DNA of 34,332 bases from an archaeon. Lineage in GTDB: Archaea > Hydrothermarchaeota > Hydrothermarchaeia > Hydrothermarchaeales > BMS3B. Shown one piece after another: positions 2,038 through 32,533 of this stretch. The stretch's first letter is position 1. Each line of letters opens with the position of its first letter. The stretch lies in NCBI GenBank assembly GCA_026989875.1, contig JALSIP010000009.1, positions 1-34,332 of the forward strand, written 5' to 3'. Both the position numbers and the translations under genes were made by a program. The notes under the pieces are model-generated. The model saw only the letters and a list, made by a program, of their open reading frames with translations. It made no database searches and was not told the origin of the DNA.

Positions 2038-2368
2038 TATGTAGAATTTCTGATGCGGAGATATATATAAATTTTTTGAGCAAAAAGGTACAAAAACAAT
2101 TTGAAAATATCGGCCTTATTTTAATCTGAATTGTCCAGAAAGATTGCAAAACGTTAAGTAGTATAGTTTAAGGAATAAATCCCTCCTATTGGACCTATAC
2201 CCAAACCTGTAAACCTGTATAAACCATATCCCCACGCCTTCAGTATGGCGCCATGATAGCCTGAGCCACTCAACATAACTTTCATGCTGTAAAATTATTC
2301 CTGAAAATAAAGCATAAGTACCACTCACACCCAGATTTCTGTGGGGATGATTGATGCAGGGGGTGCGC
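2038..2368. other. intergenic region at the boundary between AT-rich island and respiratory cluster
   Basis: Apart from the TATA box at 2062-2071 I see no gene here. Composition changes from AT-rich to GC-rich between about 2150 and 2350. There is a tandem 8-bp repeat AAACCTGT at 2203-2218 followed by TATAAACCATAT, which could hold a promoter reading right towards the Bat-like gene, but it is far from that start. No integrase, tRNA or attachment site is visible at the boundary. Confidence 0.4.
2062..2071 (-). promoter_or_regulatory. TATA box of the TIR-like gene
   Basis: The minus strand reads TTTATATATA about 30 bases upstream of the ATG at 2037. This spacing puts the predicted transcription start at or within a few bases of the start codon, and no Shine-Dalgarno sequence is visible, so the mRNA is probably leaderless or nearly so. 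Confidence 0.6.
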
Positions 2369-3019
2369 ATGGACGATAACGGAGAGTTTCTGCGGGTTCT
2401 GCTGAGCATAGAATCTGAAGGCTGCGTCATCCACAGGCTTGCTGCCAGGCATCCCTGGGTTGAATTCAGGGTGGCAGAGAGGCACGTTCTCCCTGGCGGC
2501 GGAATGCTTGCAGGCATGGTTGTGCGGAGCGGTGAGGCTGTGCGGGAGTTTCTCGGTGAGCTTGCTGCCTGTGATGAGGTCAGGTTTCTTCAGCCTGTTT
2601 ACATTGCTGGCGGGTATCTCAGGCTCAGGCTGGAATTCAAGTGCGATTCCTGCGTGGTATGCAGAATAGCTGAGATGCTGCGCATCCCTCCAGAAGAAAT
2701 CTCGTGCAGCAATGGCAGAGTCGCAGCGGCGTTTATACTGAAGAACGGCGAAGAGCTGCGCACCATGGTGGCGCACCTGCGGGAGATGAGAGCAAACTTC
2801 AGGGTGCTTGAAGTCAGACGCGGATGCTTTAGCCCCCGGGAAGTGCAGCTCACCGATAGGCAGCTTGAGATTCTCAGGTATGCATACCGTGCGGGATACT
2901 TTGACCGTGACAGGAGAGTCAACCTGCAGCACATCGCCAGGCACTTCGGTCTGAGCCCTGCCACCATCGGCGTGCACATGAGGAGCGCCATCAAAAAGAT
3001 ACTTAAAAGGGTGATATAA
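2369..3019 (+). CDS. Bat-type (HTH_10) transcriptional regulator
   Basis: The last 55 or so residues of this 216-residue protein, LTDRQLEILRYAYRAGYFD followed by LQHIARHFGLSPATIGVHM, form the helix-turn-helix typical of bacterio-opsin activator (Bat/HTH_10, PF04967) proteins of archaea. The N-terminal 160 residues resemble the ligand or redox-sensing half found in short family members and contain a C-x2-C-x2-C cluster (CDSCVVC). I place the start at ATG 2369, six bases after CAGGGGG, rather than the in-frame TTG 2351 or ATG 2354. The gene ends nine bases before the heme O synthase gene, so the two are likely co-transcribed. Family members include oxygen- and light-responsive activators. Control of the oxidase cluster is inferred from position, and redox sensing through the Cys residues is a guess. 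Confidence 0.82.
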   Translation: MDDNGEFLRVLLSIESEGCVIHRLAARHPWVEFRVAERHVLPGGGMLAGMVVRSGEAVREFLGELAACDEVRFLQPVYIAGGYLRLRLEFKCDSCVVCRIAEMLRIPPEEISCSNGRVAAAFILKNGEELRTMVAHLREMRANFRVLEVRRGCFSPREVQLTDRQLEILRYAYRAGYFDRDRRVNLQHIARHFGLSPATIGVHMRSAIKKILKRVI

Positions 3020-3028
3020 GGTGAGGAC

Positions 3029-3883
3029 ATGAGAGAGTACCTGGGGATGTTCAAGCTCCGCATAGTTGCCCTGCTCGTGTTCGTCGCTATGGTGGCTGCA
3101 GCGGTTGGCTCGGGGGGCAGCCTCCAGGTTGAGCGGCTGCTACTGCTTTTTGCAGCAGGTGCTCTTGCATCAATGGGAGCAAGCGTGCTGAACCACTATT
3201 TTGACCGGGACATAGACGCGCTTGTCCCCAGAACCAGCAACAGACCACTTCCCTCAGGCAGGATTAAGCCCAGCACCGCATGCTGGCTCGGTGTTTTGCT
3301 GGTGGGTACCTCTCTGCTCCTGTCATCACGCCTGAACTACCTCACCACCATGTACATACTTGCTGGAGCGCTGGTTTACGTTCTGGTTTATACTGTGTGG
3401 CTCAAAAGGCGCAGCGCCCTGAACATAGTCATAGGGGGTCTCGCCGGTAGCTGTGCCGTACTTGCTGGATATGCGGCAATCCGTGGCGACACCACCCTGC
3501 TCGCCCTGCTGCTTGCCCTTCTGATATTCCTGTGGACTCCGCCCCACTTCTGGGCATTTGCCATAGCCAAGAGCTCTGACTACACCAGAGCTGGAGTGCC
3601 CATGCTGCCGGTGAAGTACGGGAATGACAGAGCAGCAAAGCTGATAGTCATGCACACCGTGCTGCTGGTTCAGGCGTCCCTGCTGCTCTACGCCTTCGGC
3701 TACTTCGGCGGATTGTATCTGGTGGTGGCGGTTGTTCTGGGGGTTTTGCTGCTGGCTTTCAATCTGAAGCTGCTCGCCACCAGAAGCACAGGCTGGGCAT
3801 GGAGAAGCTACAGGTTCTCAGGTATATATCTTATAGTCCTGTTCACAGCCATACTGCTGGATGCACTATTTAAACAGGCTTAA
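3029..3883 (+). CDS. ctaB: heme O synthase (protoheme IX farnesyltransferase)
   Basis: This 284-residue membrane protein belongs to the UbiA prenyltransferase superfamily and has the CtaB/CyoE signatures: the first Asp-rich motif NHYFDRDIDALVPRTSNRPL (55-74), TPPHFWAFAI in the middle, and DYTRAGVPMLPVKYG. Eight to nine hydrophobic segments are visible. It adds a farnesyl chain to heme b to give heme O, the high-spin heme (or heme A precursor) of heme-copper oxidases. No ctaA (heme A synthase) is nearby, so the final heme could be O-type or an As/Os-type heme. The start has a good GGTGAGG ribosome site. Linkage to the subunit genes from 3929 onward supports a dedicated role in maturing that enzyme. 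Confidence 0.95.
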   Translation: MREYLGMFKLRIVALLVFVAMVAAAVGSGGSLQVERLLLLFAAGALASMGASVLNHYFDRDIDALVPRTSNRPLPSGRIKPSTACWLGVLLVGTSLLLSSRLNYLTTMYILAGALVYVLVYTVWLKRRSALNIVIGGLAGSCAVLAGYAAIRGDTTLLALLLALLIFLWTPPHFWAFAIAKSSDYTRAGVPMLPVKYGNDRAAKLIVMHTVLLVQASLLLYAFGYFGGLYLVVAVVLGVLLLAFNLKLLATRSTGWAWRSYRFSGIYLIVLFTAILLDALFKQA

Positions 3884-3928
3884 TATTTTAATACAACCTT
3901 TAATTTCTATGTGTACATCCGTTAAATC

Positions 3929-4078
3929 ATGGTGGCTGATGGGGGTAATGAGGAAATTCCTTTCATGCAGAGGTTTCTGGACAACATGTGGTTGCTGCTG
4001 ATTCTGAGTTTTGCCATACTTGCGGTGTCCTACGTGGGATGGGGAATTCTGGAAGCACTTAACGTTCCCAGCAGGTGA
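3929..4078 (+). CDS. small single-span membrane protein of the oxidase cluster (49 aa)
   Basis: This 49-codon frame has a polar N-terminus (MVADGGNEEIPFMQRFLDN), one hydrophobic segment (about 20-40, MWLLLILSFAILAVSYVGWG) and a short tail. It ends 13 bases before the subunit II ATG, and GAAGGAGGTG between the two serves that next gene. Position and topology fit a small accessory subunit or assembly peptide. I find no named family. An AT-rich stretch at 3884-3910 upstream may contain a weak promoter. In-frame ATG codons downstream (for example the one encoding M13) could also start translation. Confidence 0.65.
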   Translation: MVADGGNEEIPFMQRFLDNMWLLLILSFAILAVSYVGWGILEALNVPSR

Positions 4079-4091
4079 AGGAGGTGCCGGG

Positions 4092-4622
4092 ATGAGTGTC
4101 GCTCCCCCTCAGGGTGTGTGGTGGAAGGAGAGGACGCCCAGGGAGGAGAAGCTCTGGGTTGCCATAGCCTTGGTGTGGGCGATTGTGATGTTTGTGATGA
4201 TGCCCCTGTGGCACATCTACGGCAAGCAGAACCCCTCCACAGAGACCTACAGGGTTTCACCGGAAGAATATGTGAGACTCACCCAGGAGTTCATAGAGAA
4301 GTATAAGGTGGGTGAGGAGAATGGCGTTCCCGTTGTGGAGCCGCCGCCGGGGAGCGATGTGTACCTGCTGGGCAGGCAGTTCAGCTGGGAGCCCATAATC
4401 AGGCTCAAAAAGGGTGAAACTTATCGCTTACACCTATCCTCGGCTGATGTGCTCCACGGCTTCTCGGTCTATCCAATGAACATCAACTTCATGGTGATAC
4501 CCGGCTACGACTACGTGCTCACCGTGACGCCAACCCAGGCGGGAGTTTACAGCGTGGTGTGCAACGAGTACTGCGGGTTGGGGCACCAGGTAATGGTTGG
4601 AAAGATTATAGTGGTGGAGTGA
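4092..4622 (+). CDS. coxB: heme-copper oxidase subunit II with CuA centre
   Basis: The 176-residue protein has one N-terminal membrane anchor (about 20-42, LWVAIALVWAIVMFVMMPLW) and a C-terminal cupredoxin domain. The CuA ligands are all visible: His in DVLHGFSV, then VCNEYCGLGHQVM giving Cys-x3-Cys-x3-His-x2-Met. A single anchor and a short cupredoxin domain are typical of B-type (ba3) enzymes. It should take electrons from a soluble donor on the outer face and pass them to subunit I. I chose ATG 4092, preceded by GGAGGTGCCGGG, over an upstream in-frame opening at 4011 that overlaps the small membrane gene. A functional CuA argues that the donor is a cytochrome c or cupredoxin, but none is encoded here. 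Confidence 0.93.
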   Translation: MSVAPPQGVWWKERTPREEKLWVAIALVWAIVMFVMMPLWHIYGKQNPSTETYRVSPEEYVRLTQEFIEKYKVGEENGVPVVEPPPGSDVYLLGRQFSWEPIIRLKKGETYRLHLSSADVLHGFSVYPMNINFMVIPGYDYVLTVTPTQAGVYSVVCNEYCGLGHQVMVGKIIVVE

Positions 4623-4631
4623 GGTGACGAT

Positions 4632-6146
4632 ATGAGCGATGATTTCAGGACCTGCCCTGTGACGGGATTTAAGGTGCATCTGCCTGCTGAGAGGCTCATC
4701 AAGGTCAACGCAGTTACGGCGGTGGTGGCGCTTCTTGTGGGGGCGATTATGGCGCTCTTAGTGGCGCTCACCAGGTGGGAGACCGTGCACCTGCTGCGCC
4801 CCTTAGACTACTACAAGTTCTTAACCCTGCACGGCTGGAACATGCTGGGATTCTGGATAATATTCTTTGAGGTGGCAGTGCTCTACTTCGCCGGCGCTAT
4901 AATGCTCAACTCCCGTCTTGCCTCGCCGAAGCTCGGCTGGCTGGCGTATGCGCTCATGCTGGTGGGTGCTGCTGGCACTAACATTACTGTTCTCATGAAT
5001 CCAGCGAAGAACGCGATAATGTTCACCTCCTACGTGCCTCTGAAGGCAACCCCCGGCTACTACCTCTCGGTAATCCTCTTCGCCGTTGGCGCACTGCTTG
5101 CGGTTTTCAACTTCCTGGCGACGCTGTACATTGCCAGGAAGGAGAGGACCTACCGGGGCTCTCTTCCCTTAGTGGTCTTCGGCGCCCTGACGGCGGCAAT
5201 AATAGCGGTGAGCACCCTGCTCTTCGGCGCCGCTGCGCTGGTTCCCACCCTCTTCTGGTCCATGGGCATATCCCCCACCTGGGATGCACTAACCTACAGG
5301 ATAGTCTTCTGGGCTTTCGGGCACCCCTCGCAGCAGATAAACGTGGCGGCAATGATAGCAATCTGGTACCTGCTCGCCTACCTCACCGTAGGGGGCACGA
5401 CGATAAGCGAGAAGTTCTCCCGTCTTGCGTTTCTCTTCTACATCCTCTTCATCAACATCGCCTCGGCGCACCACCTGCTGGTTGACCCTGGCGTAAGCTC
5501 CGCCTGGAAGATATGGAACACCAGCTATGCCATGTACTTAGCGGTGCTTGCGAGCATGATGCACGCTTTTGCTGTGCCTGCGGCGATAGAGGTGGCGCAG
5601 CGCAGGAAGGGCTTCAACCGCGGCTTATTTGAATGGCTGTGGAAGGCACCCTGGAAGAACCCCTCCTTCTCGGCGCTCATCCTCTCAATAGTAATCTTTG
5701 GCTTCCTGGGCGGGATAAGCGGCGTGATTCAGGGCACGGAGCAGCTCAACATAAGGTTCCACAACACCCTTGCGGTGCCCGGCCACTTCCACGGCACAGT
5801 CGCAGGTGGCACAACTCTGGCGTTCATGGGCATAACCTACTACGTGCTTCCGCTGATATTCAGGCGCGAGGTTGTGGGCAAGAGCCTGGCGGTGTACCAG
5901 CCCTGGATATTCGGCATAGGCATAGCTCTGGTCTCCATAGGCATGCAGGGCGCTGGTCTATACGGTGTGCCCAGGAGGCATGCGGACATAACCAGCTTCG
6001 GCGGCTCCGTCTTTGCCTTTGACTACGACCCCACCGCCTACTTCTGGCTTTCCCTGCTGGGCATTGGCGGCATCCTCGCCTTCACCGGAGCGCTGCTATT
6101 CGTTCTAATAGCTGTTGCCACGCTGATTAAGGGAAGGAGGCTCTGA
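4632..6146 (+). CDS. coxA: heme-copper oxidase/NO reductase superfamily subunit I, lacking the cross-linked Tyr
   Basis: A 504-residue protein with about 13 membrane spans. Heme and copper ligands are present: His67 (LTLHGWN) and His387 for the low-spin heme, His385 (PGHFHG) for the high-spin heme, His231 (FGHP) and His280-His281 (SAHHLL) for CuB. In oxygen-reducing A and B types the residue four after the first CuB His is a Tyr covalently linked to it (H-P-x-V-Y). Here the sequence is H-P-S-Q-Q, so residue 235 is Gln. Loss of this Tyr is a hallmark of NO reductases and of NOR families proposed to derive from B-type oxidases. It could therefore reduce NO rather than O2; this is inference. GAGGTGA precedes the ATG, and the stop lies two bases before the subunit IIa-like gene. 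Confidence 0.9.
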   Translation: MSDDFRTCPVTGFKVHLPAERLIKVNAVTAVVALLVGAIMALLVALTRWETVHLLRPLDYYKFLTLHGWNMLGFWIIFFEVAVLYFAGAIMLNSRLASPKLGWLAYALMLVGAAGTNITVLMNPAKNAIMFTSYVPLKATPGYYLSVILFAVGALLAVFNFLATLYIARKERTYRGSLPLVVFGALTAAIIAVSTLLFGAAALVPTLFWSMGISPTWDALTYRIVFWAFGHPSQQINVAAMIAIWYLLAYLTVGGTTISEKFSRLAFLFYILFINIASAHHLLVDPGVSSAWKIWNTSYAMYLAVLASMMHAFAVPAAIEVAQRRKGFNRGLFEWLWKAPWKNPSFSALILSIVIFGFLGGISGVIQGTEQLNIRFHNTLAVPGHFHGTVAGGTTLAFMGITYYVLPLIFRREVVGKSLAVYQPWIFGIGIALVSIGMQGAGLYGVPRRHADITSFGGSVFAFDYDPTAYFWLSLLGIGGILAFTGALLFVLIAVATLIKGRRL

Positions 6147-6148
6147 AG

Positions 6149-6268
6149 ATGGAGGAAGAGGTAAGACCGAAGGGCACTCTCGCGCTGGTGCTGCTCTTCT
6201 TCGTGGTGTTTGTGCTCTTCTACGTGGTCAACTGGATATGGCTCAGCGGTGTATGGGTGCTGAGGTAG
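6149..6268 (+). CDS. ba3-type oxidase subunit IIa-like peptide (39 aa)
   Basis: A 39-codon gene starting MEEEVRPKGTLALVLL with a single hydrophobic helix. It closely resembles in length and pattern the 34-residue subunit IIa of Thermus thermophilus ba3 oxidase, which also begins with M-E-E, a Lys-Pro/Pro-Lys-Gly turn and one membrane helix and replaces part of the second helix missing from subunit II. The ATG is two bases after the subunit I stop, and AAGGGAAGGAGG lies before it. It is too short for most gene callers. Its presence supports the view that the neighbouring subunit I is of B type in architecture, even though the active site is altered. Confidence 0.8.
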   Translation: MEEEVRPKGTLALVLLFFVVFVLFYVVNWIWLSGVWVLR

Positions 6269-6281
6269 CGGAGGAGCAGAG

Positions 6282-7541
6282 TTGAACAGCGCCCACCTCC
6301 ACCGCTGGCTCCTCTTTTCTGTTTTTTCACTTGTTTTTGCCGGCGTCTTTGCCTTCTTCGCCGCCATGGCGCGCACCCCTGCGGTCAGGCTCTTCCCTGT
6401 GGAGGAGCTCTTCAGGGTAGCGCTGGTGGTGCACGTTATCTTCGCCGTTGTCATCTGGTTTCTGGGCTTCAAGGCAGTGCTCTGGTGCTACTGCGCTGCC
6501 GGAAGGGGCTCAGCTGTCAGCCGCCTGTGGAGCTATGGACTGTATGCCGCCATCGCCGGTATGCTCATGGTGGCAGCCTCACCGCTCTTCAGCGCCAGGC
6601 CTCTGCTCATAGACTACATCCCTCTGCTGCTGCACCCCCTCTACTTCGGAGGGCTCATTCTCATTGCCCTGGGAATGAGCGCCGTTGCCCTGGCATACAT
6701 AAAGCACTCTACGGGTGTGAAGCTTGACCTGCCCTCCTACACGATGCTGCTTGCAGCCTTCGTGCTCTTCGTGACCTTCCTCAGCTTCTTCTCCTCCGCC
6801 TTTATCAACGGCACCGACTACCGCGCCCTCGTCTGGGGTCCGGGGCACATCTTCCAGGTAGCGAGCACCTTAGCGATGGCTGCTGCCTGGTTTATCCTGC
6901 TGCGGGAAACCCTGGGCAGGGACCTGGACTCCCCGCCGGTGAGGAGGCTTCTCCTCCTCTACCTTGCGGTGGCAATGCTCATGCCGGGCATCTACTTCTT
7001 CCCCCGCTCTGAGCAGTTCTGGCTGTTCACCCGGGCGATGATGTACGGGATAGCTCTTCCGAGCGTCTTCGTGGGGCTTCTGGTGCTCAGAGCCCTGGCG
7101 GAGCAGCCATCGCTGGAGCTGCGCAACCCTGAGGTGGCATCCTTAGTGTATTCCTCAGTTCTCTTCGGCACCGGCGGTGCCATGGGTTTCTTTGCCACGA
7201 GTGCTGACCTGCGCGTTCCGGCTCACTACCACGGTGTGCTCGGCGCGGTAACCCTCGCCTTTATGGGTGCCACCTACCTGCTCCTGAGGAAGCTGGACAT
7301 ACCCTACAGCCGCCGTGCTGCCATGCTCCAGCCCCACCTCTACGGAGCGGGTCTGCTGCTTATAATCTCAGGCCTCTTCTGGGCTGGGATGCAGAGCGCC
7401 CCTCGCAAGACGGTTGAGTATGCGGACTCTGCCACCAGACTTGCCATGAACCTCATGGGACTCGGCTCTGTTGTGGCGGTGGTGGGCGGCGCCGCCTTCG
7501 TGGGCGTTGTGCTCCTGGCGCTGCTCAGGGCTGGCAGGTGA
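6282..7541 (+). CDS. second, divergent heme-copper subunit I homologue lacking the CuB His pair
   Basis: The 419-residue protein has about 12 membrane spans. It aligns with subunit I at several points: His51 (VVHVIF) and His317 suit a low-spin heme, His315 (PAHYHG) a high-spin heme, and WGPGHIFQVAS (185-195) matches WAFGHPSQQIN around the first CuB His (His189). About 49 residues later, where the His-His CuB pair should be, the sequence reads YFFPRSEQFW with no His. CuB is therefore probably absent or replaced. The start is TTG 6282 behind GGAGG. The last 17 bases overlap the convergent ferredoxin gene. It may be a second subunit in one complex, an electron-transfer paralogue or a separate reductase; the sequence does not decide. 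Confidence 0.8.
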   Translation: MNSAHLHRWLLFSVFSLVFAGVFAFFAAMARTPAVRLFPVEELFRVALVVHVIFAVVIWFLGFKAVLWCYCAAGRGSAVSRLWSYGLYAAIAGMLMVAASPLFSARPLLIDYIPLLLHPLYFGGLILIALGMSAVALAYIKHSTGVKLDLPSYTMLLAAFVLFVTFLSFFSSAFINGTDYRALVWGPGHIFQVASTLAMAAAWFILLRETLGRDLDSPPVRRLLLLYLAVAMLMPGIYFFPRSEQFWLFTRAMMYGIALPSVFVGLLVLRALAEQPSLELRNPEVASLVYSSVLFGTGGAMGFFATSADLRVPAHYHGVLGAVTLAFMGATYLLLRKLDIPYSRRAAMLQPHLYGAGLLLIISGLFWAGMQSAPRKTVEYADSATRLAMNLMGLGSVVAVVGGAAFVGVVLLALLRAGR

Positions 7542-7878
7542 AGTTTATCGCATCCATGGGGCAGGCGTCTATGCAGGCTCTGCAGGGCTTCTCCGCATCG
7601 GGGTTTCTAACCCTCTCGCACCTGTTCATGTCCACCTCTACTGCAACACCCTCCCCTATGCGCATCACCATCCCCTCACCGCTTTCCCCCTTACCCCCTC
7701 CCACACCGCCCCTGAGGGCGTTCACGGGGCATGCAACCACGCAGTTGCCGCAGCCGTTGCACAGCTCTTCCAGCACCACCATCTTTATCCTCCTCTCCCC
7801 CCGCAGCACGGGCAGCAGCTTCAGGAGGAGCAGCAGGAAGAAGGCGGACAGCAGCAGGGCTACCGGCGTGGCATCCAT
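7525..7878 (-). CDS. membrane-anchored ferredoxin-type protein, two [4Fe-4S] clusters
   Basis: The 117-residue protein starts with one hydrophobic helix (about 5-25, PVALLLSAFFLLLLLKLLPVL) followed by a basic stretch, so the rest should be cytoplasmic. Two cluster motifs follow: CNGCGNCVVACP, and a second set with the first Cys in MNRCERV and then CRACIDACP near the C-terminus. A Gly-rich loop separates them. The ATG is immediately after the stop of the cytochrome b fusion (no gap), so the two genes form one operon and probably one complex. Its 3' end overlaps the end of the second subunit I gene by 17 bases. Confidence 0.85.
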   Translation of the reverse strand: MDATPVALLLSAFFLLLLLKLLPVLRGERRIKMVVLEELCNGCGNCVVACPVNALRGGVGGGKGESGEGMVMRIGEGVAVEVDMNRCERVRNPDAEKPCRACIDACPMDAINFTCQP

Positions 7879-9771
7879 TTACCCATCACCCAGGTGGAAC
7901 CTGCCCTTCTCAAATTTCAGGATGACCACCCTGCTCCTTTCAAACCTCACCCTCTCCACCAGTCTGTACCTGAATTCACCCTCCGCAGAGTCCCTTATTC
8001 TGACCTCTAAGGTGTGCTCTCCCGGCTCAACTTCTATTCTCTCGTAGGCATAGCTGGGCCCATCCCTCCACAGCCCCGAGGGCTGATAGCTCTTCCTGAG
8101 CACAGTTCTGCCATCTATCGCTAACACCACCTCCACTGGGGAGCGCTCCCTGGGGCAGGGAGTCAGGTTGCCAGCTCTGAGCTCCTCCACAGTTGGCTCC
8201 CTGCAGGGCACCAGCCGCTCCCCCGGGTGGCTCATGGTGAAGAGGAGCATCGCTTTATCTGCCTGCATCAGGGAGTAGGCGGGGGATGTGGAGAAGTAGC
8301 TCAGAGGTAGCGTGAAGAGGAGCAGCAGCATAAGTATGAGGTGCGGTGCTGGCTTCTCCCTGTCACACTTTCCTTCCTCCAGAGCGGATATGAGTTTCTT
8401 TTCTTCACCCGGCATTAGCCAGCACAACCTCACCCGACCCGCTTCAGGATGCTTCAGCACGGGAGCTCGTCTTCCAGATAGCCTGTCCTCTGTCCATAGG
8501 TTACCGAAGCGGTACCTGCAGTCTCCGTGTTTGCATCCCGCGATGACGAGCTTATTCACACCAGCATCAAGGGCATCCGCAACAGCCAAGGGATGAAGCA
8601 TCCCAATGCAGCGCAGGCTGAGCACCTTCACATTACTCTGCATGAGTCTGTCTGCTGCCTTACCACCCAGGCAGTGCCTGCAGATGACCACCAGAGTCTT
8701 ATCCCTCTCAGCCAGCGATTTTACCTCTTTCCTGAGCAATTCAAGCTCCGTATCTCCAAACTCTACAGCGTTGAAACTGCAGGAGCCGACGCATATCCCG
8801 CAGCCTGCACATCTGCTCCCTGATACGCTGGCGACCTTCTTTTCGCCATCTTTAAGCATACTTATAGCACCGTACGGACAGTCAGCATAACACAGCTCAC
8901 ATCCGGTGCAGGTTTCTCTACGAATTCTGGCGCTGAGCCATTCTTTCTGAAGTAGCCTGGGCACCGCAAGCAGGAATGCGGTGATGGCTATCAGCAGGAG
9001 CCAGCTCAGGCGTGGATGGCTCTGCATCAGCGGCAGGGGTAGCATGTAATACCAGTCCACAGGCACTTTGACCGGGATATCGTATGGCGTGGCTGGTGGA
9101 GCGCTGATTGCTGGCTTGAGCAGCGATAGGGTCAGCAGCACCGCCAGAAGCAGCACTGCAACACGCTCCGGTGGAAGCAACCTGACGCCGGATAGTCTGG
9201 AGAAATGAAGCAGCAGAAGTACTGATGAGAACAGGGGGAGTGCAAGATGAGTGAAAACCACCGCAAAGAAAAGCAGACTGGTCAGACTTTCTTCACCGGC
9301 AACCGACATGGCGAGGGGTTTTGGAAATACCGGGAGCTCATCCAGAAATTCAGTTATGCCAAGCGCCACAAGCTGCGCACGCTGATCCCACACCATCCAG
9401 TAGCCTGTGAGACCCTCTATCAGTACAGCACCAAATAAAAGAACCCCCGAGACCCACACCAGCCACCTGCTCTGCAGCAGCCTCCTGGTTATGAGGGTTC
9501 TGATACCGTGAAGAATAAGAACAATTATGAGGGCATCTGCAGAATACCTGTGAATACTGCGCATAATCCCGGCTATACGGTCTTCAGTTATATTATTTAC
9601 AGAGATGTATGCGTTCTGCGCGTTTATACTGTAAAAAGGCAGCACGTAAATGCCGCTAATTGCGGTTAACAGCAGCAGGAATATGGCAATCTGCCCCAGA
9701 TGCATAAAGGGGTTGTATCTGGATGTGAAGGCACGGTTTACCAGCAGCTCCATTCTGGAAAACAGGGTCAT
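7879..9771 (-). CDS. cytochrome b - 2[4Fe-4S] ferredoxin - MvhD-like fusion membrane protein
   Basis: Domains in order over 630 residues: a cytochrome b part (1-270) with two His pairs, His74/His88 and His175/His189, each spaced as in bc-complex cytochrome b, and PVDWYY (237-242) in the place of the PEWY quinol-site motif; a ferredoxin with C-x2-C-x2-C-x3-C at 288-298 and 321-331; an MvhD/FlpD-type [2Fe-2S] domain (about 360-455; Cys364, 367, 388, 413, 418; AGCKHGDCRYRFGN); one more membrane span (about 477-493); and a C-terminal beta-rich domain, probably outside. MvhD normally passes electrons between hydrogenase or dehydrogenase and heterodisulfide reductase. Such a fusion could connect a cytoplasmic flavin/FeS partner to a quinone pool. 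A Rieske protein is not encoded. The start ATG 9771 is supported by the N-terminal amphipathic helix; ATG 9753 is also possible. Confidence 0.85.
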   Translation of the reverse strand: MTLFSRMELLVNRAFTSRYNPFMHLGQIAIFLLLLTAISGIYVLPFYSINAQNAYISVNNITEDRIAGIMRSIHRYSADALIIVLILHGIRTLITRRLLQSRWLVWVSGVLLFGAVLIEGLTGYWMVWDQRAQLVALGITEFLDELPVFPKPLAMSVAGEESLTSLLFFAVVFTHLALPLFSSVLLLLHFSRLSGVRLLPPERVAVLLLAVLLTLSLLKPAISAPPATPYDIPVKVPVDWYYMLPLPLMQSHPRLSWLLLIAITAFLLAVPRLLQKEWLSARIRRETCTGCELCYADCPYGAISMLKDGEKKVASVSGSRCAGCGICVGSCSFNAVEFGDTELELLRKEVKSLAERDKTLVVICRHCLGGKAADRLMQSNVKVLSLRCIGMLHPLAVADALDAGVNKLVIAGCKHGDCRYRFGNLWTEDRLSGRRAPVLKHPEAGRVRLCWLMPGEEKKLISALEEGKCDREKPAPHLILMLLLLFTLPLSYFSTSPAYSLMQADKAMLLFTMSHPGERLVPCREPTVEELRAGNLTPCPRERSPVEVVLAIDGRTVLRKSYQPSGLWRDGPSYAYERIEVEPGEHTLEVRIRDSAEGEFRYRLVERVRFERSRVVILKFEKGRFHLGDG

Positions 9772-10069: not shown

Positions 10070-10108
10070 AGTCCCGGAGGCAGTACGGGAAGGTTGGAGG
10101 TGAAAGCT

Positions 10109-12604
10109 GTGGTAGTGTTGAGACGGATTTCGGAGTCCGTTAAGGACTACGACACCATCAGGTACACCACCTGCGACAACATGTGCGAGAGCGGCTGTGG
10201 AATGAAGGTGTACCTGAAGGATGGCAGAATAGTTGACATCTGGGGTGACGATGAGCACCCGCAGAACTACGGCTCCCTTTGCCCGAAGGGAACCGCAAAC
10301 TACCAGCATGTGTACAACCCCCTCAGGGCAAAATACCCCGTGATCAGGGAGGACAACGTTAACGGGAAGTTCAGGCGTGTAACCTGGGATGATGCGCTTG
10401 ACTTTGTTGCCGAGCGCCTGAAGTACATACGTGAGAAGTGGGGTGCCCACACCGTAGCCTGCCACCGCACAGGAAGGAGCAGCTACGGTAACAAGCTGGG
10501 TGGCTCCAGGTTCCTTGCCATGTACGGCACGCCCAACATCTACGGCCAGGGACCGCTCTGCTGCGAGTCCCCCGGAGCGAGGGGTCAGTACGTATTCGGT
10601 GCCAAGGAGTTTCTCCGCTTGATGAACCCCTGTCAGGATGCGATGAACAGCGACACCGTGTTCATCGCAGGTGCAAATGCAGCGGCGCTGGAAGTAATCA
10701 CCATGAAGTGGTTCATAGAGGCGCAGGAGCGCAATGGCGCCAAGATGATAGTCATAGACCCGCGCTTCAATGCCACGATGGCAAAGGCAGACCTGGCGCT
10801 GCGCCTCAGACCAACCACCGACGCCTACCTGGCGAACTCCTTGGCGCACGTGCTCATCTACGAGATAGATGGCATAGACAAGGAGTTCATAGCCAAGTGG
10901 ACGGTTGGCTTTGACAAGTATGCAGAGCTTGTCAAGGACTACACCCCTGAGAAGGCTGAGAACATCACCTGGGTTCCGGCTGAGGACATACGCAAGGCAG
11001 CCGAGTGGATAGCCTATCCCAGGAGGACGCACTTCACGGGCTGCTTAGGTACCGCGCAGCAGTACAATGCCGGCAACGGCAATGCCGCCTACCAGATACT
11101 GGTGGCGATCACAGGAAACGTGGGTGTTAAGGGTGGTGGCTGGAACTGGCTGCACAACTGCAGACCTGTGCTGAGCGCCGGCAAGGACCTGAAGGAGTAC
11201 GTGGCTAAGATAAAGGAGCCGCAGCTCTCTGACAAGATCATACCCTGGGGCGACACCTCAAGCGCCTGCACCATAAATCCTGGATACACCGGCAAGCCCT
11301 ACCCGGTGAAGGGGCTGATATGGAACGGCAACCACATAGTGCAGTGGCCCAACAACAACAAGGTGAGGGAGTACATGAAGAACCTGTACTGCGGTGTGCA
11401 CCTGAGCTTCCATCCCAACGAGACCATGAGCTGGATGCATGCAGCATTTCCGATAACCAGCTTCTTTGAGCACGAGGGCGTGGTGCACCACGGCAACAAC
11501 CGCCACGTGCAGTGGCACAACCAGATTATTGAGAGGCAGTGGGAGTGCAGGGCAGACATAGACTTCTGGGCAGGTCTGGCGAAGCGCTTTGAGTTCGCCG
11601 AGGCTTACTATGCGCCCGACGGTAAGAGCTGGTGGGCGAAGAAGGACGTCTTCGGCAACCCGCTGCCCGAGGACCCGAAGTACCCCGGCACCACCCACGA
11701 GATTGATGAGCGTGTCTGCCAGAACTGGTTCCACTCCCAGGAGCCCTTTGTGGCTGGCATAACCGCCGACCTCATGGACCCGGAGATGTCCCCCAAGGGC
11801 GGTGTGATGTGGCCTGCTGAAACCAAGGACGAGGCTATGATGTACTCCGACCCCGAGGCGACCATAAGAGGTGCCCAGTGGATAATGTACAAGGAGGGCG
11901 TCAACTACCCCGGCACCGACAAGCGCTTCCCCACACCCAGCGGCAAGGTGGAGATATACAGCAGGGCGCTGGAGCAGATAGGCTGGTATCCCATGCCCAT
12001 ACACATAGAGCCCAACAACGCACCAGTTGCGAGACCAGACCTGTGGGAGAAGTACCCGCTCATCCTGTGCACGGGTCGCTTGGTTGCGCACTTCCACGAG
12101 ATGGGTCACTGGTGGCCCTGGATGGTTGAGCTGGAGCCCCACAGATTCATCAACATCCACACCGACTTAGCCAAGGAGCTGGGCATACGCGACGGCGACA
12201 CCGTGGTCTGCGAGAACGACTACGGCAAGGTCATAGGTCCCGCCTGGGTCAATGAGATGGTTGACGTAGCCGAGGTCTGGGGACCAGAGGGCTTTGACAA
12301 GTACCAGCCCTTCTATCCCTACAGCAACATTAACGAGCTCGTGGATGACACCGTGAAGGACCCCTTCTACACGCAGGCGCAGTACAAGTGCAACCTCGTG
12401 CGTGTGTATCGCCTGGGCGATGACCCGGATAAGGCTGTGGAGAAGACCAAGGAGTTCTTAGCTAAGCACAAGCGCACACCCAAGGACTACCTGGACCCGG
12501 AGAAGGAGCCGAGCGTCAACCTGGGTACCTACACCAGACTCACCCAGGAGGGCAGCGGCATCTACTACGTAGGGGTGCCGCGTGAGAAGTGGGAGACCAA
12601 GTGA
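10109..12604 (+). CDS. molybdopterin oxidoreductase catalytic subunit (DMSO reductase superfamily)
   Basis: The 831-residue protein binds one [4Fe-4S] cluster near the N-terminus (Cys22, 26, 30 and 58: TCDNMCESGC then SLCPKG) and the bis-molybdopterin-guanine-dinucleotide cofactor (IDPRFNATMAKAD; the C-terminal PSGKVEIYS and LILCTGR region). A Cys pair in GPLCCESPGARG lies where many family members have the molybdenum ligand, which would place it nearer polysulfide/thiosulfate-reductase-like enzymes than Ser-ligated DMSO reductases. The substrate cannot be named. There is no Tat signal and no membrane partner, so it is probably cytoplasmic. I chose GTG 10109, five bases after GGAGGTGA, though the frame opens at TTG 10094. 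The two ferredoxin subunits and the TorD chaperone follow in the same operon. Confidence 0.88.
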   Translation: MVVLRRISESVKDYDTIRYTTCDNMCESGCGMKVYLKDGRIVDIWGDDEHPQNYGSLCPKGTANYQHVYNPLRAKYPVIREDNVNGKFRRVTWDDALDFVAERLKYIREKWGAHTVACHRTGRSSYGNKLGGSRFLAMYGTPNIYGQGPLCCESPGARGQYVFGAKEFLRLMNPCQDAMNSDTVFIAGANAAALEVITMKWFIEAQERNGAKMIVIDPRFNATMAKADLALRLRPTTDAYLANSLAHVLIYEIDGIDKEFIAKWTVGFDKYAELVKDYTPEKAENITWVPAEDIRKAAEWIAYPRRTHFTGCLGTAQQYNAGNGNAAYQILVAITGNVGVKGGGWNWLHNCRPVLSAGKDLKEYVAKIKEPQLSDKIIPWGDTSSACTINPGYTGKPYPVKGLIWNGNHIVQWPNNNKVREYMKNLYCGVHLSFHPNETMSWMHAAFPITSFFEHEGVVHHGNNRHVQWHNQIIERQWECRADIDFWAGLAKRFEFAEAYYAPDGKSWWAKKDVFGNPLPEDPKYPGTTHEIDERVCQNWFHSQEPFVAGITADLMDPEMSPKGGVMWPAETKDEAMMYSDPEATIRGAQWIMYKEGVNYPGTDKRFPTPSGKVEIYSRALEQIGWYPMPIHIEPNNAPVARPDLWEKYPLILCTGRLVAHFHEMGHWWPWMVELEPHRFINIHTDLAKELGIRDGDTVVCENDYGKVIGPAWVNEMVDVAEVWGPEGFDKYQPFYPYSNINELVDDTVKDPFYTQAQYKCNLVRVYRLGDDPDKAVEKTKEFLAKHKRTPKDYLDPEKEPSVNLGTYTRLTQEGSGIYYVGVPREKWETK

Positions 12605-12614
12605 GGTGGTGGAG

Positions 12615-13400
12615 ATGGATGAGGTCTTCTCAGACAAGGGCTACTGCCTCAACCTGGACCAGGAGACAGCACGCTCTGCCATGGAGCGCATAGAGAAGAT
12701 CGGGCTCAGAGAGGCGCAGGCTGCCAGTGTCTGGGGTATACCCCCAGACCACATTGCCATGTTCGTTGACCTGAAGCGCTGCATAGGCTGCTTCGCCTGC
12801 GAGACTGCCTGCAAGCTTGAGCATGACGACCCCATGGGTCCACGAAGGATGCGCGTGATTCAGGTGGGACCGAAGAAGGTGGGCAGGCACACCAAGGCGA
12901 TGTACATACCCATGAACTGCTTCATGTGCGGTCACGCCGCCTGCGTTGAGGCATGCCCCACCGGGGCGATGACCAAGCGCTCCAAGGACGGCATAGTGTT
13001 TGTGGACAGCGAGAAGTGCATAGGCTGCAAGCGCTGCATGCAGGCGTGCCCCTTCGGCGCACCACAGTACGACTCAAGGACGGGCAAGGTTATAAAGTGC
13101 GACTACTGCATGCACCGCATTGACCAGGGGCTGCAGCCTGCCTGCGTGACCAAGTGCTCCACTCACGCCCTCTACATCGGCAACCCTGCTGACATAATGA
13201 CCTACTTCCGTGAGAAAGACGCCATACGTCTGGCAAGAGTTTACTTTGACGACAGGGCAGACACCGACCTGCTGACCTCACCTGCCTACGCATTCCCGGA
13301 GCGGGCGCTCTTCATACCCAGAGTGCGCCTGAAGCCTGGCAAGCTTCCGGAGCGTGTCACAGAGGTTACAAAGCCCGTCTACAAGAAGGAGCAGCAGTAG
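12615..13400 (+). CDS. four-cluster [4Fe-4S] electron-transfer subunit 1 of the molybdoenzyme
   Basis: A 261-residue DmsB/PsrB/NrfC-type protein with sixteen ligand Cys in four sets: 56-59-62-66, 102-105-110-114, 135-138-141-145 and 162-165-177-181. An N-terminal extension of about 50 residues with no Cys-rich motif precedes the first cluster. It should carry electrons to or from the catalytic subunit encoded ten bases upstream. The ATG at 12615 follows GAGGTGGTGGAG. Residues about 121-157 are encoded by a 112-nt segment that is identical to the paralogue at 13693. No signal peptide is present, as for the catalytic subunit. With two such subunits in one operon the enzyme may form either a long FeS chain or two alternative complexes. 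Confidence 0.9.
   Translation: MDEVFSDKGYCLNLDQETARSAMERIEKIGLREAQAASVWGIPPDHIAMFVDLKRCIGCFACETACKLEHDDPMGPRRMRVIQVGPKKVGRHTKAMYIPMNCFMCGHAACVEACPTGAMTKRSKDGIVFVDSEKCIGCKRCMQACPFGAPQYDSRTGKVIKCDYCMHRIDQGLQPACVTKCSTHALYIGNPADIMTYFREKDAIRLARVYFDDRADTDLLTSPAYAFPERALFIPRVRLKPGKLPERVTEVTKPVYKKEQQ
12975..13086 (+). repeat. 112-nt identical patch, copy 1
   Basis: This segment is base-for-base identical to 13981-14092 in the paralogous ferredoxin gene, although flanking parts of the two genes have diverged in both sequence and synonymous positions. It spans the third cluster motif (CIGCKRCMQACP). Confidence 0.9.
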
Positions 13401-13414
13401 GGGCTCATCCCCCT
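13399..13414 (+). other. short stem-loop after the first ferredoxin gene
   Basis: AGGGG-CTCAT-CCCCT forms a five-base-pair stem right after the stop codon, followed by a T-rich stretch (CCCTTTTGATTTTTC) and then the AGGAGG of the next gene. It could reduce read-through or protect the upstream mRNA end; the operon clearly continues after it. Confidence 0.35.
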
Positions 13415-13443
13415 ACCCTTTTGATTTTTCAGGAGGATAAGAG

Positions 13444-13677
13444 GTGGCAAAGCCCAAGGGTTACCGGGGAGAGCTTGATGATGCTCTCAGGCAGGCGCTT
13501 GAGGGCGTGGTGCCTGAAAATCTTAAAAAGAGAGTCATGAAGAATCCTGACTGGATTTATGTGCTCACGATTATCAGGGAGATGAGAGCCCGTGAGCTCG
13601 GCAGCTACTACTTCGGCAGCGATGTTATGGTTTCTCCATGCTGCCCCATGCCAGAGCGTCTGGGCTATGAGGATTAA
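13444..13677 (+). CDS. small conserved-position protein of unknown function in the molybdoenzyme operon (77 aa)
   Basis: The frame starts at GTG 13444, seven bases after AGGAGG, and encodes a soluble, partly helical protein (LDDALRQALEGVVPENLKKR; DWIYVLTIIREMRARELGS) that ends with a Cys pair (VSPCCPMPERLGYED). I do not recognise the family. It lies between two ferredoxin subunit genes and has its own strong ribosome site, so it is very likely translated. Possible roles are a small structural subunit or an assembly factor for a metal centre (because of the C-C near the C-terminus), but neither is shown by sequence. Confidence 0.75.
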   Translation: MAKPKGYRGELDDALRQALEGVVPENLKKRVMKNPDWIYVLTIIREMRARELGSYYFGSDVMVSPCCPMPERLGYED

Positions 13678-13692
13678 CAGGAGGTCCTGGAA

Positions 13693-14505
13693 ATGCAGGT
13701 TCAGATATCTGAGCCCTTCAGGGAGGATGTGGTGCTGAAGGAGCCAAGGGACGGGGATGTGGTCATGCTCATTGACCTGAAGCGCTGCATAGGCTGCTTC
13801 TCCTGCGAAACCTCCTGCAAGCTGGAGCACGAGCTCGGCATGGGTCCCAGGCTGATAAGGGTGATTCAGGTGGGACCCAGGGAGGTGAGGGGCAGGATCA
13901 GAACCCTCTACATACCCATGCCCTGCTTCCACTGCTCACCAGCCGCCTGCGTTGAGGCATGCCCCACGGGAGCGATGCAGAAGCGCTCCAAGGACGGCAT
14001 AGTGTTTGTGGACAGCGAGAAGTGCATAGGCTGCAAGCGCTGCATGCAGGCGTGCCCCTTCGGCGCACCACAGTACGACTCAAGGACGGGCAGGGTTGTG
14101 AAGTGCAACTTCTGCATGCAGCGGGTTGACTACCGCAGAACCTACACCCGTGAGGAGCTTGAGAAGATATACCGGCACGTGCCCCAGAAGAGAATCTACC
14201 TGCCTGTTCATGACGAGGTGGGCAACATAAAGCGGGACAGCAAGGGCAGGCTGGTGGATGAGAAGGGTGAGCCGCTCTCCGGAAGAAAGCTCGCCGAGGC
14301 TGGTGAGATGCCAGAAAGCCTGAGCTACTCGGGGCTGTGGAGCGCCTGCGCCACCAAGTGCTCCACCGAGGCTATGACCTTCGGCTACTACAGGGACGTC
14401 AAAAAGCTCATAGAGCAGAAGGCAGAGAACAGGCAGATACACCGGGTGGGCAGCGTCTTCTATGCCCTGCCCCCTGAGGACTTTCCGCTTCCGCGCTCCA
14501 AGTAG
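13693..14505 (+). CDS. four-cluster [4Fe-4S] electron-transfer subunit 2 of the molybdoenzyme
   Basis: A 270-residue paralogue of the 12615 gene product. Ligand Cys sets are 32-35-38-42, 78-81-86-90, 111-114-117-121 and 138-141-219-223. The loop between the second and third Cys of the last set is 77 residues long (11 in the paralogue) and contains a charged hairpin-like stretch (HDEVGNIKRDSKGRLVDEKG). The N-terminal extension of the paralogue is missing. The ATG at 13693 follows CAGGAGGTCC. The long insert may shape a docking surface for a different partner. With no NrfD/PsrC-type membrane gene near, the electron donor or acceptor is probably soluble, such as ferredoxin, or the cytochrome b-ferredoxin-MvhD membrane protein encoded divergently upstream. 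Confidence 0.9.
   Translation: MQVQISEPFREDVVLKEPRDGDVVMLIDLKRCIGCFSCETSCKLEHELGMGPRLIRVIQVGPREVRGRIRTLYIPMPCFHCSPAACVEACPTGAMQKRSKDGIVFVDSEKCIGCKRCMQACPFGAPQYDSRTGRVVKCNFCMQRVDYRRTYTREELEKIYRHVPQKRIYLPVHDEVGNIKRDSKGRLVDEKGEPLSGRKLAEAGEMPESLSYSGLWSACATKCSTEAMTFGYYRDVKKLIEQKAENRQIHRVGSVFYALPPEDFPLPRSK
13981..14092 (+). repeat. 112-nt identical patch, copy 2
   Basis: Identical to 12975-13086. A second shorter shared block (GCCTGCGTTGAGGCATGCCC) lies just upstream of both copies. The pattern fits recent gene conversion between the two ferredoxin genes better than simple conservation. Confidence 0.9.
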
Positions 14506-14517
14506 CGCGGACCTACA

Positions 14518-14540
14518 GTTTTATTTTCAATTGTTTCCTT
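14518..14540 (+). terminator. T-rich stretch, possible terminator and/or TATA element before the chaperone gene
   Basis: GTTTTATTTTCAATTGTTTCC follows the second ferredoxin stop. Archaeal termination often uses such T-runs. The GTTTTATTTT part could equally serve as a TATA box for the chaperone-nurA-herA genes, predicting a start near 14548 and a short leader before TTG 14567. Confidence 0.35.
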
Positions 14541-14566
14541 AAAGCATCTGAGTAGAGGTGTTCAGC

Positions 14567-15634
14567 TTGCCGGAGTCTTCGGTGTTTGAGGAGAACAGGT
14601 ATGTTAAGTGGTTCATAGACCCTGAGCTGGCAAAGGACTGGAAGAACCTGCTAAAGAAGTACCCCTATCTCTTCTGGATACAGTCAATGAACGTGCGTGA
14701 CAGGAAGCAGTGGGCGGTGCTGGTGAGGAAGTACTCACCCGAGCTGCGCCCGCCGGTGAAGGTGCACGGAGCTGAGAGCTATGCCGAGCTCAGCGTTGCC
14801 AGAAGAGATGCCTGGTTCCAGCTTTTCAGATGCCTCACCGAGGTGTCCCTGAACCTTGTCAGGGAGTTTCAGAGCGGTGAGTTCGCGGATAAGCTGAGAT
14901 GCAGCTTCGGCAGGCTGCTTGGAGAGAGGGAGGTGGAGACGTACCTGGAGCAGCTTGAGCGTGTTAGGCTGGAATTTGAACACCTCCGTGCCGAGAAGCT
15001 GCAGCGGGAGCTTGAGGCAGAGCGCTTCACCATATTTGACGATGACCTGATGCCGTACCTGTCAGCCCACGAGTCGGTGTACAGGAGTGAGAAGCAGCTC
15101 ATGGGCGACCTGACAGCGCAGGTTAAGGAGCTTTACCGGCGTGCCGGCTATGTGGTTGACAAGTCCAGAGGGAACCTGCCCCCGGATGAGGCAAAGCTTG
15201 AGGTGGAGTTTGCATATCGCCTGATAGAGGATGAGATTCAGGCGTGGAGAAGGGGGGAGAATGAGAGAGCCATGGAGCTTCTTCAGCTTCAGAGGGAGTT
15301 CATCCAGCAGCACGCTGCGCTCTGGCTTCCCTACATGTTCGCAGACCTGGCAAGCAGGGAGTTCAGAATAGGGATAGCCAGGAAGTACCACGGGGATGTG
15401 CGGGATGAGGAGCTCTACGCCCGTGAGGGTGCGGTGGTGGAGATGGACTTTCTTCAGGTTATAGCGGGGCTGGGCAGGATGCTGGTGGAGCAGGAGTACC
15501 TGCAGGTTGAGGAGATGCTGCAGGCTGCAGGCAAGATTTCTGCAGGGGAGCTTGCAGCCGCCTTCAGCGGGGTTGTGCCGCTCCCGACTGCGGGCGAAAA
15601 CACCTACCTGCTGAGGGCAGGGCAAAATGCTTGA
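14567..15634 (+). CDS. TorD/DmsD-family chaperone for the molybdoenzyme
   Basis: The C-terminal two-thirds of this 355-residue, all-helical protein has the TorD (redox enzyme maturation protein) pattern: MPYLSAHESVYRSEKQLMGD, PPDEAKLEVEFAYRLIEDE and HAALWLPYMFADLA. Such chaperones bind the apo-catalytic subunit and hold it for cofactor insertion. At the N-terminus it has an extra segment of about 150 residues (FIDPELAKDWKNLLKKYP...), making it longer than the usual 200 residues. The start is probably TTG 14567, six bases after GAGGTG; an in-frame GTG at 14558 is the alternative. Its stop overlaps the nurA start by eight bases (ATGCTTGA), an unexpected coupling of a redox chaperone to DNA-repair genes. 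Confidence 0.82.
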   Translation: MPESSVFEENRYVKWFIDPELAKDWKNLLKKYPYLFWIQSMNVRDRKQWAVLVRKYSPELRPPVKVHGAESYAELSVARRDAWFQLFRCLTEVSLNLVREFQSGEFADKLRCSFGRLLGEREVETYLEQLERVRLEFEHLRAEKLQRELEAERFTIFDDDLMPYLSAHESVYRSEKQLMGDLTAQVKELYRRAGYVVDKSRGNLPPDEAKLEVEFAYRLIEDEIQAWRRGENERAMELLQLQREFIQQHAALWLPYMFADLASREFRIGIARKYHGDVRDEELYAREGAVVEMDFLQVIAGLGRMLVEQEYLQVEEMLQAAGKISAGELAAAFSGVVPLPTAGENTYLLRAGQNA

Positions 15635-30919: not shown

Positions 30920-32533
30920 GTGAATGCTGTGAGGAGAAGGATAGGCTTCAGGGAGGCGCTGAGCATTGGCATAGGGGGAATGGTGGGGGGCGGGATATTT
31001 GCGGTGCTCGGGCTGAGTGTGCAGCTCTCGGGGGGTGCCGCGCCGGTGGCTTTTATGATAGCCGGCACGGTGGCGCTGGCTACAGCCTACTCTTATGCCA
31101 GGCTCTCGGTCAGGTTCCCGAGCAGAGGCGGTACCATAGAGTTCTTAGTGCGCGGGTTTGGGACAGGCGTGCTCTCCGGCACGCTCAACCTGCTGCTGCT
31201 GGCGAGCTATGTGGTGATGGTGGCGCTCTACGCCTACGCTTTCGGAAGCTATGGCGCAAGCCTGCTCGGCTCCGCATCCCAGGCTGCCAGACACCTGCTG
31301 GCTGCCGCTGTTGTGGCTGTATTCACGGCTGTGAATGCCTTGGGGGCGCTGGTAAGCGGGAGAACCGAGGATGCCTTAGTCGCGGTGAAGATGCTTATAC
31401 TGCTGCTGGTGACTGCCGCCAGTCTAAGCTATGTGGATGCGGCGCGCCTGTCTCCAGCCACCTGGGCAGACCCCGTGAGCGTTGTGGCGGGTGGAATGGT
31501 GATATTCTTAGCTTACGAGGGGTTTGAGCTCATAGCCAACACGGCAGGGGAGGTGGAGAGCCCGTCGGTGCTGCCGCGGGCGTACTATGCATCCGTGCTT
31601 ATAGTTGTGGCAGTCTACGTGATGGTGGCGGCTGTTACCGTGGGCACGCTGCCCTTTGAGAAGATTGTGCTGGCAAGGGACTACGCGCTGGCGGCGGCTG
31701 CAGAGCCGGCGCTGGGTAGAGCGGGGTTCCTGCTCGTGACGCTTGCAGCTCTGCTGTCCACGAGTTCGGCGATAAATGCAACCCTCTACGGTACGGCAAG
31801 AGCCAGCTACGTGGTGGCGAAGTACGGGCAGCTCCCGGAGGCTGTGGAGAAGCCGGTGTGGGGGCAGGCGTACGAGGGGCTGCTGGTGATAAGCCTGCTC
31901 TCAATAGCACTGGCGAGCACGGCAAGCCTTGAGTCCATATCCATAGCCGGGAGCGGCGGTTTCCTGCTGGTTTTTACCTTCGTGAATCTCGCAGCACTGA
32001 GGCTGAGGAGCTGCCTGAAGATAAATCCGCTGGTGCCGGCGGCTGGCGCGGTGATGTCATCCGCCGCCTTGGTGCTGCTGGTTTACAGGATGGCAGCCGA
32101 GGAGCCGGTGAGCTTGGGGGTTTTTGCAGGCATGCTCGCGGGAGCCCTCGCCGGCGAGCTCGCATACAGGCGGCTGAAGGGCAGGAGGCTGGGGGAGTAC
32201 GTGGATGCATGCCTGTGCAGAAGGGAGGAGTGCGTGAGGGGCTGGGAGGGCTGGCTGCACAGGGCTGCCGGGAGTGTCAGGAGGCTGTACGCGGATGCGG
32301 AGGTGTACCTGGTGGGGAGCGTGGCGAGGGGCGAGCTCTCCAGAGCCGGTGATGTGGACCTGCTGGTGATTACCGAGCATCCGCCGTCCGCAGAAGAGAG
32401 GAGCAGGGTGCTGGAAATAATCAAGCGCCAGGCACGCCTCAAACCAGAGCACGGGATTCACCTGCACTTCGCACCGAGTGTTGAGAGGGAGAAGGCACTG
32501 AAACGGGCAGGACGGTTCGTGAGGGTTGGATGA
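30920..32533 (+). CDS. APC-family permease fused to a C-terminal minimal nucleotidyltransferase domain
   Basis: Residues about 1-425 of 537 are an amino acid/polyamine (APC) transporter: IGIGGMVGGGIFAVLG at the first helix, FLAYEGFELIANTAGEVESP in helix 6, and about 12 hydrophobic helices. After a basic link (YRRLKGRRLGEYV) and a short Cys-containing region (DACLCRREEC), the C-terminus (about 450-537) is an MNT-type nucleotidyltransferase: EVYLVGSVARGELSRAGDVDLLVIT with Gly466-Ser467 and Asp478/Asp480. The third acidic position appears as H-L-H (IHLHF), so activity is uncertain. I do not know this fusion from any characterised protein. GTG 30920 follows GGTGAGGG closely; GTG 30929 is an alternative. 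It might modify a cargo or regulator, or sense nucleotides. Confidence 0.85.
   Translation: MNAVRRRIGFREALSIGIGGMVGGGIFAVLGLSVQLSGGAAPVAFMIAGTVALATAYSYARLSVRFPSRGGTIEFLVRGFGTGVLSGTLNLLLLASYVVMVALYAYAFGSYGASLLGSASQAARHLLAAAVVAVFTAVNALGALVSGRTEDALVAVKMLILLLVTAASLSYVDAARLSPATWADPVSVVAGGMVIFLAYEGFELIANTAGEVESPSVLPRAYYASVLIVVAVYVMVAAVTVGTLPFEKIVLARDYALAAAAEPALGRAGFLLVTLAALLSTSSAINATLYGTARASYVVAKYGQLPEAVEKPVWGQAYEGLLVISLLSIALASTASLESISIAGSGGFLLVFTFVNLAALRLRSCLKINPLVPAAGAVMSSAALVLLVYRMAAEEPVSLGVFAGMLAGALAGELAYRRLKGRRLGEYVDACLCRREECVRGWEGWLHRAAGSVRRLYADAEVYLVGSVARGELSRAGDVDLLVITEHPPSAEERSRVLEIIKRQARLKPEHGIHLHFAPSVEREKALKRAGRFVRVG

Follow-up and report, generated by a model that had tools for sequence, protein, structure and literature searches.

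The window, as we call the whole 34,332-nucleotide stretch of DNA analysed here, carries the genes of a heme-copper enzyme, with a gene for heme O synthase upstream and genes for a second oxidase-like protein and for candidate electron-transfer proteins downstream. The features on which the analysis draws are the following.

2351-3019, + strand: HTH_10/DmsR_N-type archaeal regulator, a candidate regulator of the cluster (Pfam HTH_10, 2e-18; DmsR_N, 1e-5)
3029-3883, + strand: CyoE/CtaB heme O synthase of the UbiA family (Pfam UbiA, 8e-58)
3929-4078, + strand: subunit IIa peptide, 49 aa, one transmembrane helix (identified by positional homologues)
4092-4622, + strand: CuA subunit II, with a full CuA site and Glu19 at the K-channel entry position
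4632-6146, + strand: subunit I, assigned to eNOR, 504 aa (Pfam COX1, 2e-68)
5334-5336, + strand: codon of Gln235, equivalent to ba3 Tyr237 (counted from the reading-frame start at 4632)
6282-7541, + strand: S2, heme-copper-oxidase-like protein, 419 aa (Pfam COX1, 2e-14)
7525-7878, - strand: [4Fe-4S] ferredoxin-like protein, 117 aa, found next to eNOR only in the archaeal copies
7879-9771, - strand: fusion of cytochrome b, two [4Fe-4S] and FlpD (MvhD) domains, 630 aa (Pfam)

The regulator gene stops 9 bp ahead of cyoE, and a 44% homologue lies directly upstream of cyoE in another eNOR locus (L032). An earlier reading of this DNA from its sequence only had placed a CuA subunit and a ba3-type IIa peptide beside subunit I, and both hold up. 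The IIa peptide is genuine, with homologous small open reading frames at the same place in loci of Hydrothermarchaeota, Thermus, Thermomicrobium and Nitrospirota. The adjoining subunit II, which probably starts at 4092 rather than at 4011, has a complete CuA site (H122, C157, E159, C161, H165 and M168), and these ligands and Glu19 are invariant in 81/81 homologues. An Rfam search of the window gave no match.

Other genes of the window lie outside this cluster. Positions 10094-15634 encode a molybdopterin oxidoreductase (836 aa), two [4Fe-4S] proteins and a TorD/NarJ-type chaperone, for which no NCBIfam model matched at its cut-off. A 283-aa protein (1186-2037, - strand) has a weak match to the CAP12/Pycsar TIR domain (5e-4, below the cut-off) and is possibly a defence effector, and at 30920-32533 a C-terminal nucleotidyltransferase domain is fused to an amino acid permease.

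The active site of subunit I

All six heme and CuB ligands claimed for subunit I are present in the translated reading frame (H67, H231, H280, H281, H385 and H387). By sequence, its closest solved structures are the ba3 oxidases of T. thermophilus (28-29% identity), and its AlphaFold2 model (mean pLDDT 82.5) has the same fold (TM 0.87 to ba3). In the alignment of the two, GHPSQQ stands opposite GHPIVY: H231-P-S-Q-Q235 in the window enzyme against H233-P-I-V-Y237 in ba3. The mark of B-type oxygen reductases, a Tyr at the fourth residue past the CuB His of helix VI and cross-linked to it, is therefore absent, and Gln235 is in its place, as the sequence-only reading had it. The two enzymes otherwise share the heme and CuB His, the CuA site, the IIa subunit and a Glu at the K-channel entry.

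When 85,000 species genomes were scanned with subunit I, at least 527 relatives were returned, of which 80 were kept. The clade, with 85 sequences, spans Ca. Hydrothermarchaeota, Thermus, Chloroflexi, Nitrospirota and many Proteobacteria. Both Q234 and Q235 are invariant in the 85 clade members examined, each of which carries the site motif [SA]QQ[IV]N (QQIN in the window copy). Given this invariance, and the agreement of same-genus and same-family copies, Gln235 is neither a chance substitution nor a sequencing error. The His ligands are likewise invariant among the 85 sequences, save for Lys in place of His387 in two Thermus copies. The Thermus thermophilus plasmid eNORs (L027, L028 and L031) read GHFK, with Lys at this low-spin heme position, where the 83 other eNORs all have His.

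An oxygen reductase in which some other radical donor replaces the Tyr is very improbable. Cbb3 oxidases work in this way, their catalytic Tyr being on helix VII at the sixth residue ahead of the His-His pair, and a Tyr so placed had been named at the outset as what would overturn the NO reductase reading. Such an enzyme would fit the retained metal ligands, the CuA site, the K-channel-like path and the ba3-like fold, as well as the presence on helix VII of an invariant Tyr270, which, from its place in the alignment, may be a distant radical site. Tyr270, however, lies one helical turn beyond the cbb3 position, which is occupied by Ile274 in the window enzyme and by Leu or Ile in 85/85 sequences.

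Placement within the eNOR family

The reading frame at 4632-6146 very probably encodes the catalytic subunit of eNOR, a CuA-containing NO reductase descended from B-type (ba3-like) oxygen reductases; homology and genomic context are the grounds on which this function would be assigned. The family is attributed to Hemp and Gennis (2008), and the main paper on it is that of Murali et al. (PNAS, 2024). In a maximum-likelihood tree of 78 rows, in which the Thermus, Thermomicrobium and Chloroflexi copies stand for published eNOR references, the eNOR clade (95/95) is separate from the Tyr-bearing B oxidases, including the one encoded by the same archaeal genome, and the window copy is sister to the Thermus eNORs (100/99). 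In the published scheme (PMC8756737), eNOR is diagnosed by a Gln in place of the cross-linked Tyr, at alignment position 323, and it is by clade position together with this Gln that we assign the window copy to eNOR, one of four NOR families counted as biochemically characterised (PMC11388526). The sequence-only reading had offered a CuA-dependent NO reductase or a new branch. The former is favoured by the position inside the eNOR clade, the diagnostic Gln and a NirS in the same genome, all of which point to NO reduction.

The latter, a Tyr-less branch outside eNOR that lost its Tyr independently, is refuted by the tree, and we give it next to no credence. The archaeal host is far from the bacterial eNORs and the C-terminus falls short of that of Thermus and proteobacterial eNORs by about 60-75 residues, as might be expected of a separate branch, but the window copy is nested among bacterial eNORs, is 50-68% identical to members from Thermus, Thermomicrobium, Nitrospirota and Proteobacteria (66-68% for the Nitrospirota copies), and has the same QQIN signature and partner genes. 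With the family it shares the Gln at the Tyr position, the CuA subunit II, the B-type-like fold, and heme O synthase and IIa genes nearby; it differs in its archaeal host and in the S2 gene directly downstream. The window enzyme is thus a further member of the known eNOR family, in an archaeal host.

Other NO reductases (cNOR/qNOR, sNOR, gNOR and bNOR, or CuANOR) are also Tyr-less heme-copper enzymes, and bNOR, sNOR and gNOR are B-related as well, but they have Glu, Asn or Asp at this site, not Gln (PMC8756737, Table A4). The marks of cNOR and qNOR are absent from the window enzyme, which has Gln where theirs is the active-site Glu, and a CuA subunit where they have a cytochrome c subunit or a fused quinol module.

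On plasmids of Thermus thermophilus, Defluviimonas and Thermomicrobium lie genes 50-55% identical to subunit I, with annotations that name cbb3- or ba3-type oxidases. Haloarchaeal plasmid matches at 31-33% were rejected as eNORs, being ordinary Tyr-bearing B oxidases. A Deinococcus psychrotolerans plasmid (L117, 1300-3033) encodes a Tyr-less, B-like heme-copper enzyme with the motif GHPEKK, possibly from another NOR family.

Conserved neighbours of eNOR

The gene for the CuA subunit is present at 80/80 eNOR loci, and a cyoE homologue is near eNOR at 48 of the 80. Where full flanks were available (46 loci), the cytochrome b/FeS/FlpD gene was found at all 46, SCO at 45, IIa at 41 and cyoE at 26. 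Most of the cytochrome b matches also span the Fer4 (60/67) and FlpD (55/67) parts. The cytochrome b part of the window protein has four His in two pairs 14 residues apart (H74/H88 and H175/H189), the usual pattern of a two-heme cytochrome b, and beyond a further transmembrane helix the fusion has an additional C-terminal domain. Within the relatives, the whole-length fusion occurs in eNOR genomes only, a co-occurrence that is not independent evidence because neighbouring genes are co-inherited. The fusion is probably the electron-input partner of eNOR, and the gene order suggests that electrons from quinol or FeS proteins would enter through it. Upstream of several deltaproteobacterial eNOR clusters lies a protein of about 130-150 aa that matches only the C-terminal part of COX1 (L042, 4895-5338; L046, 1-246; L055, 653-1054; all - strand).

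A second oxidase-like protein

Directly 3' of eNOR in Hydrothermarchaeota, Nitrospirota and deltaproteobacterial loci lies the gene for S2, and five related genomes share the eNOR-S2 pair. S2 keeps H51, H189, Q192, H315 and H317, and the helix-VII His-His pair is missing from it in 9/9 aligned copies, so that of the three CuB His of subunit I the helix-VI H189 is kept and the other two are gone. With the heme-ligand His kept and the His-His pair missing, S2 could hold two hemes and no ordinary CuB. Its AlphaFold2 model (pLDDT 86.6) resembles ba3 (TM 0.78), although by sequence an S2 profile found no match among PDB chains.

Across 148 Nitrospirota genomes, S2 was found in 14/14 that carry eNOR and in 6/134 that do not (Fisher p = 3e-15, with bit-score cut-offs of 440 for eNOR and 250 for S2 chosen post hoc, and with genomes that are not independent). 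Five of these 14 genomes have eNOR and S2 far from each other or on separate contigs. A search of plasmids for S2 gave no match.

The nearest named family is that of the cytochrome c oxidase subunit I paralogues, with which S2 shares the COX1 match, the ba3-like fold and the heme-ligand His, and from which it differs in having neither the helix-VII His-His pair nor a match to any NCBIfam model. A relationship to NnrS was considered and rejected, as COX1 was the sole relevant Pfam match up to E 1. We found no published description of S2 in the literature searched, which omits most subscription journals, and the protein appears to be undescribed. Possible roles are those of a partner subunit, an NO-binding protein or an assembly factor. 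Our fuller proposal is tentative and could well be wrong: S2 would represent an undescribed family of CuB-less heme-copper-oxidase paralogues dedicated to eNOR as partners, perhaps by serving as a second membrane subunit with two hemes that passes electrons on or binds NO. Whereas the eNOR described so far has two subunits, eNOR with S2 and the cytochrome b/ferredoxin/FlpD fusion would form a larger complex for NO respiration.

NirS and the host

The host is an uncultured deep-sea archaeon, its closest named relative among the matches listed being a Ca. Hydrothermarchaeota contig with a 94% identical gene. Bacterial contamination was considered and rejected: the window contains an ADP-dependent sugar kinase and, by eye, an aIF2-beta-like open reading frame, the nirS of this genome is beside archaeal-type ribosomal genes, and the eNOR-S2 pair recurs in the five related genomes.

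Another contig of the genome (C34) encodes a complete NirS, the cytochrome cd1 type of nitrite reductase, and there nirS stands beside archaeal-type rpS13 and rpS4 (by eye). The protein (585 aa) has a cytochrome c domain (heme c, CxxCH) and a Cytochrom_D1 domain, and matches P. aeruginosa NirS at 2e-175 over 511 residues. In locus L032, nirS (4492-6156) sits inside the eNOR cluster, with cyoE on one side and IIa on the other; the same junction in the window is a 45-bp gap (3884-3928) without nirS. The two genes are also adjacent in the sister genomes G006 and G009 and on a Thermus plasmid. Six genomes of the relatives searched carry eNOR; five of them encode a full NirS, and the sixth (G001) is 62% complete. 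One genome (G002) has NirS without eNOR. This linkage of the cluster to nirS argues further against an oxygen reductase, as does the separate, canonical B-type oxidase (HPLVY) of the same genome, which indicates that O2 has its own enzyme.

The host most likely has a pathway from nitrite through NO to N2O. The search of its genome for NosZ matched only two CuA subunits, and none was found for NirK. For NirJ, which would speak for heme d1 synthesis, the best match scored under the curated cut-off, and since its model finds matches in 14/14 control genomes as well, it is uninformative. Earlier work reported a nitric oxide reductase, but neither NirS nor NirK, in its Hydrothermarchaeota MAGs (PMC6759336), and nirS in Hydrothermarchaeota has already been listed (PMC10999283).

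Proposed mechanism

In this superfamily, electrons are established to flow from CuA to the low-spin heme and on to the heme/CuB site. In the window enzyme they would, by homology, pass from CuA of subunit II to the low-spin heme (H67/H387) and then to a binuclear site formed by the high-spin heme (H385) and CuB (H231, H280 and H281). Further upstream, quinol or FeS-protein electrons would probably arrive through the neighbouring cytochrome b/FeS/FlpD protein. At the binuclear site, two NO, supplied by the organism's own NirS, would be reduced to N2O, an activity to which family and context point and with which the NirS context agrees. Gln235 occupies the Tyr position, where a Tyr radical would be dispensable because NO reduction needs no O-O bond cleavage. 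As a homologue of O2 reductases, the enzyme could also act on O2 to some extent.

Protons would probably be taken up along a K-channel-like path through Glu19 of subunit II and Y246, S308 and H311 of subunit I. The last three are invariant and aligned with ba3 Y248, S309 and T312, which are K-channel positions; an invariant His311 thus replaces Thr312. If these residues conduct protons, they would fit the single proton channel listed for eNOR (PMC8756737), and proton uptake along such a path means that turnover may conserve energy.

Alternatively, NO may be reduced for detoxification only, without energy conservation. This is compatible with the eNOR assignment, has been suggested for eNOR carriers (PMC8114936), and would suit a genome in which neither NosZ nor NirK was found. 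We consider it rather unlikely, since the organism's own NirS would yield stoichiometric NO, and the conserved K-channel-like residues and the cytochrome b partner fit respiration.

Implications

The range of eNOR, with a complete nirS, is here extended to Ca. Hydrothermarchaeota, which would give these uncultured subseafloor archaea a concrete denitrification step, from nitrite through NO to N2O. The nirS-eNOR linkage joins the separate reports of Nor (PMC6759336) and nirS (PMC10999283) in these archaea. Public records label such genes as cbb3- or ba3-type oxidases, and a genome with an eNOR may for that reason be mistaken for that of an aerobe. Should S2 and the cytochrome b/FeS/FlpD protein prove to be true partners of eNOR, its electron route and energy yield would become testable.
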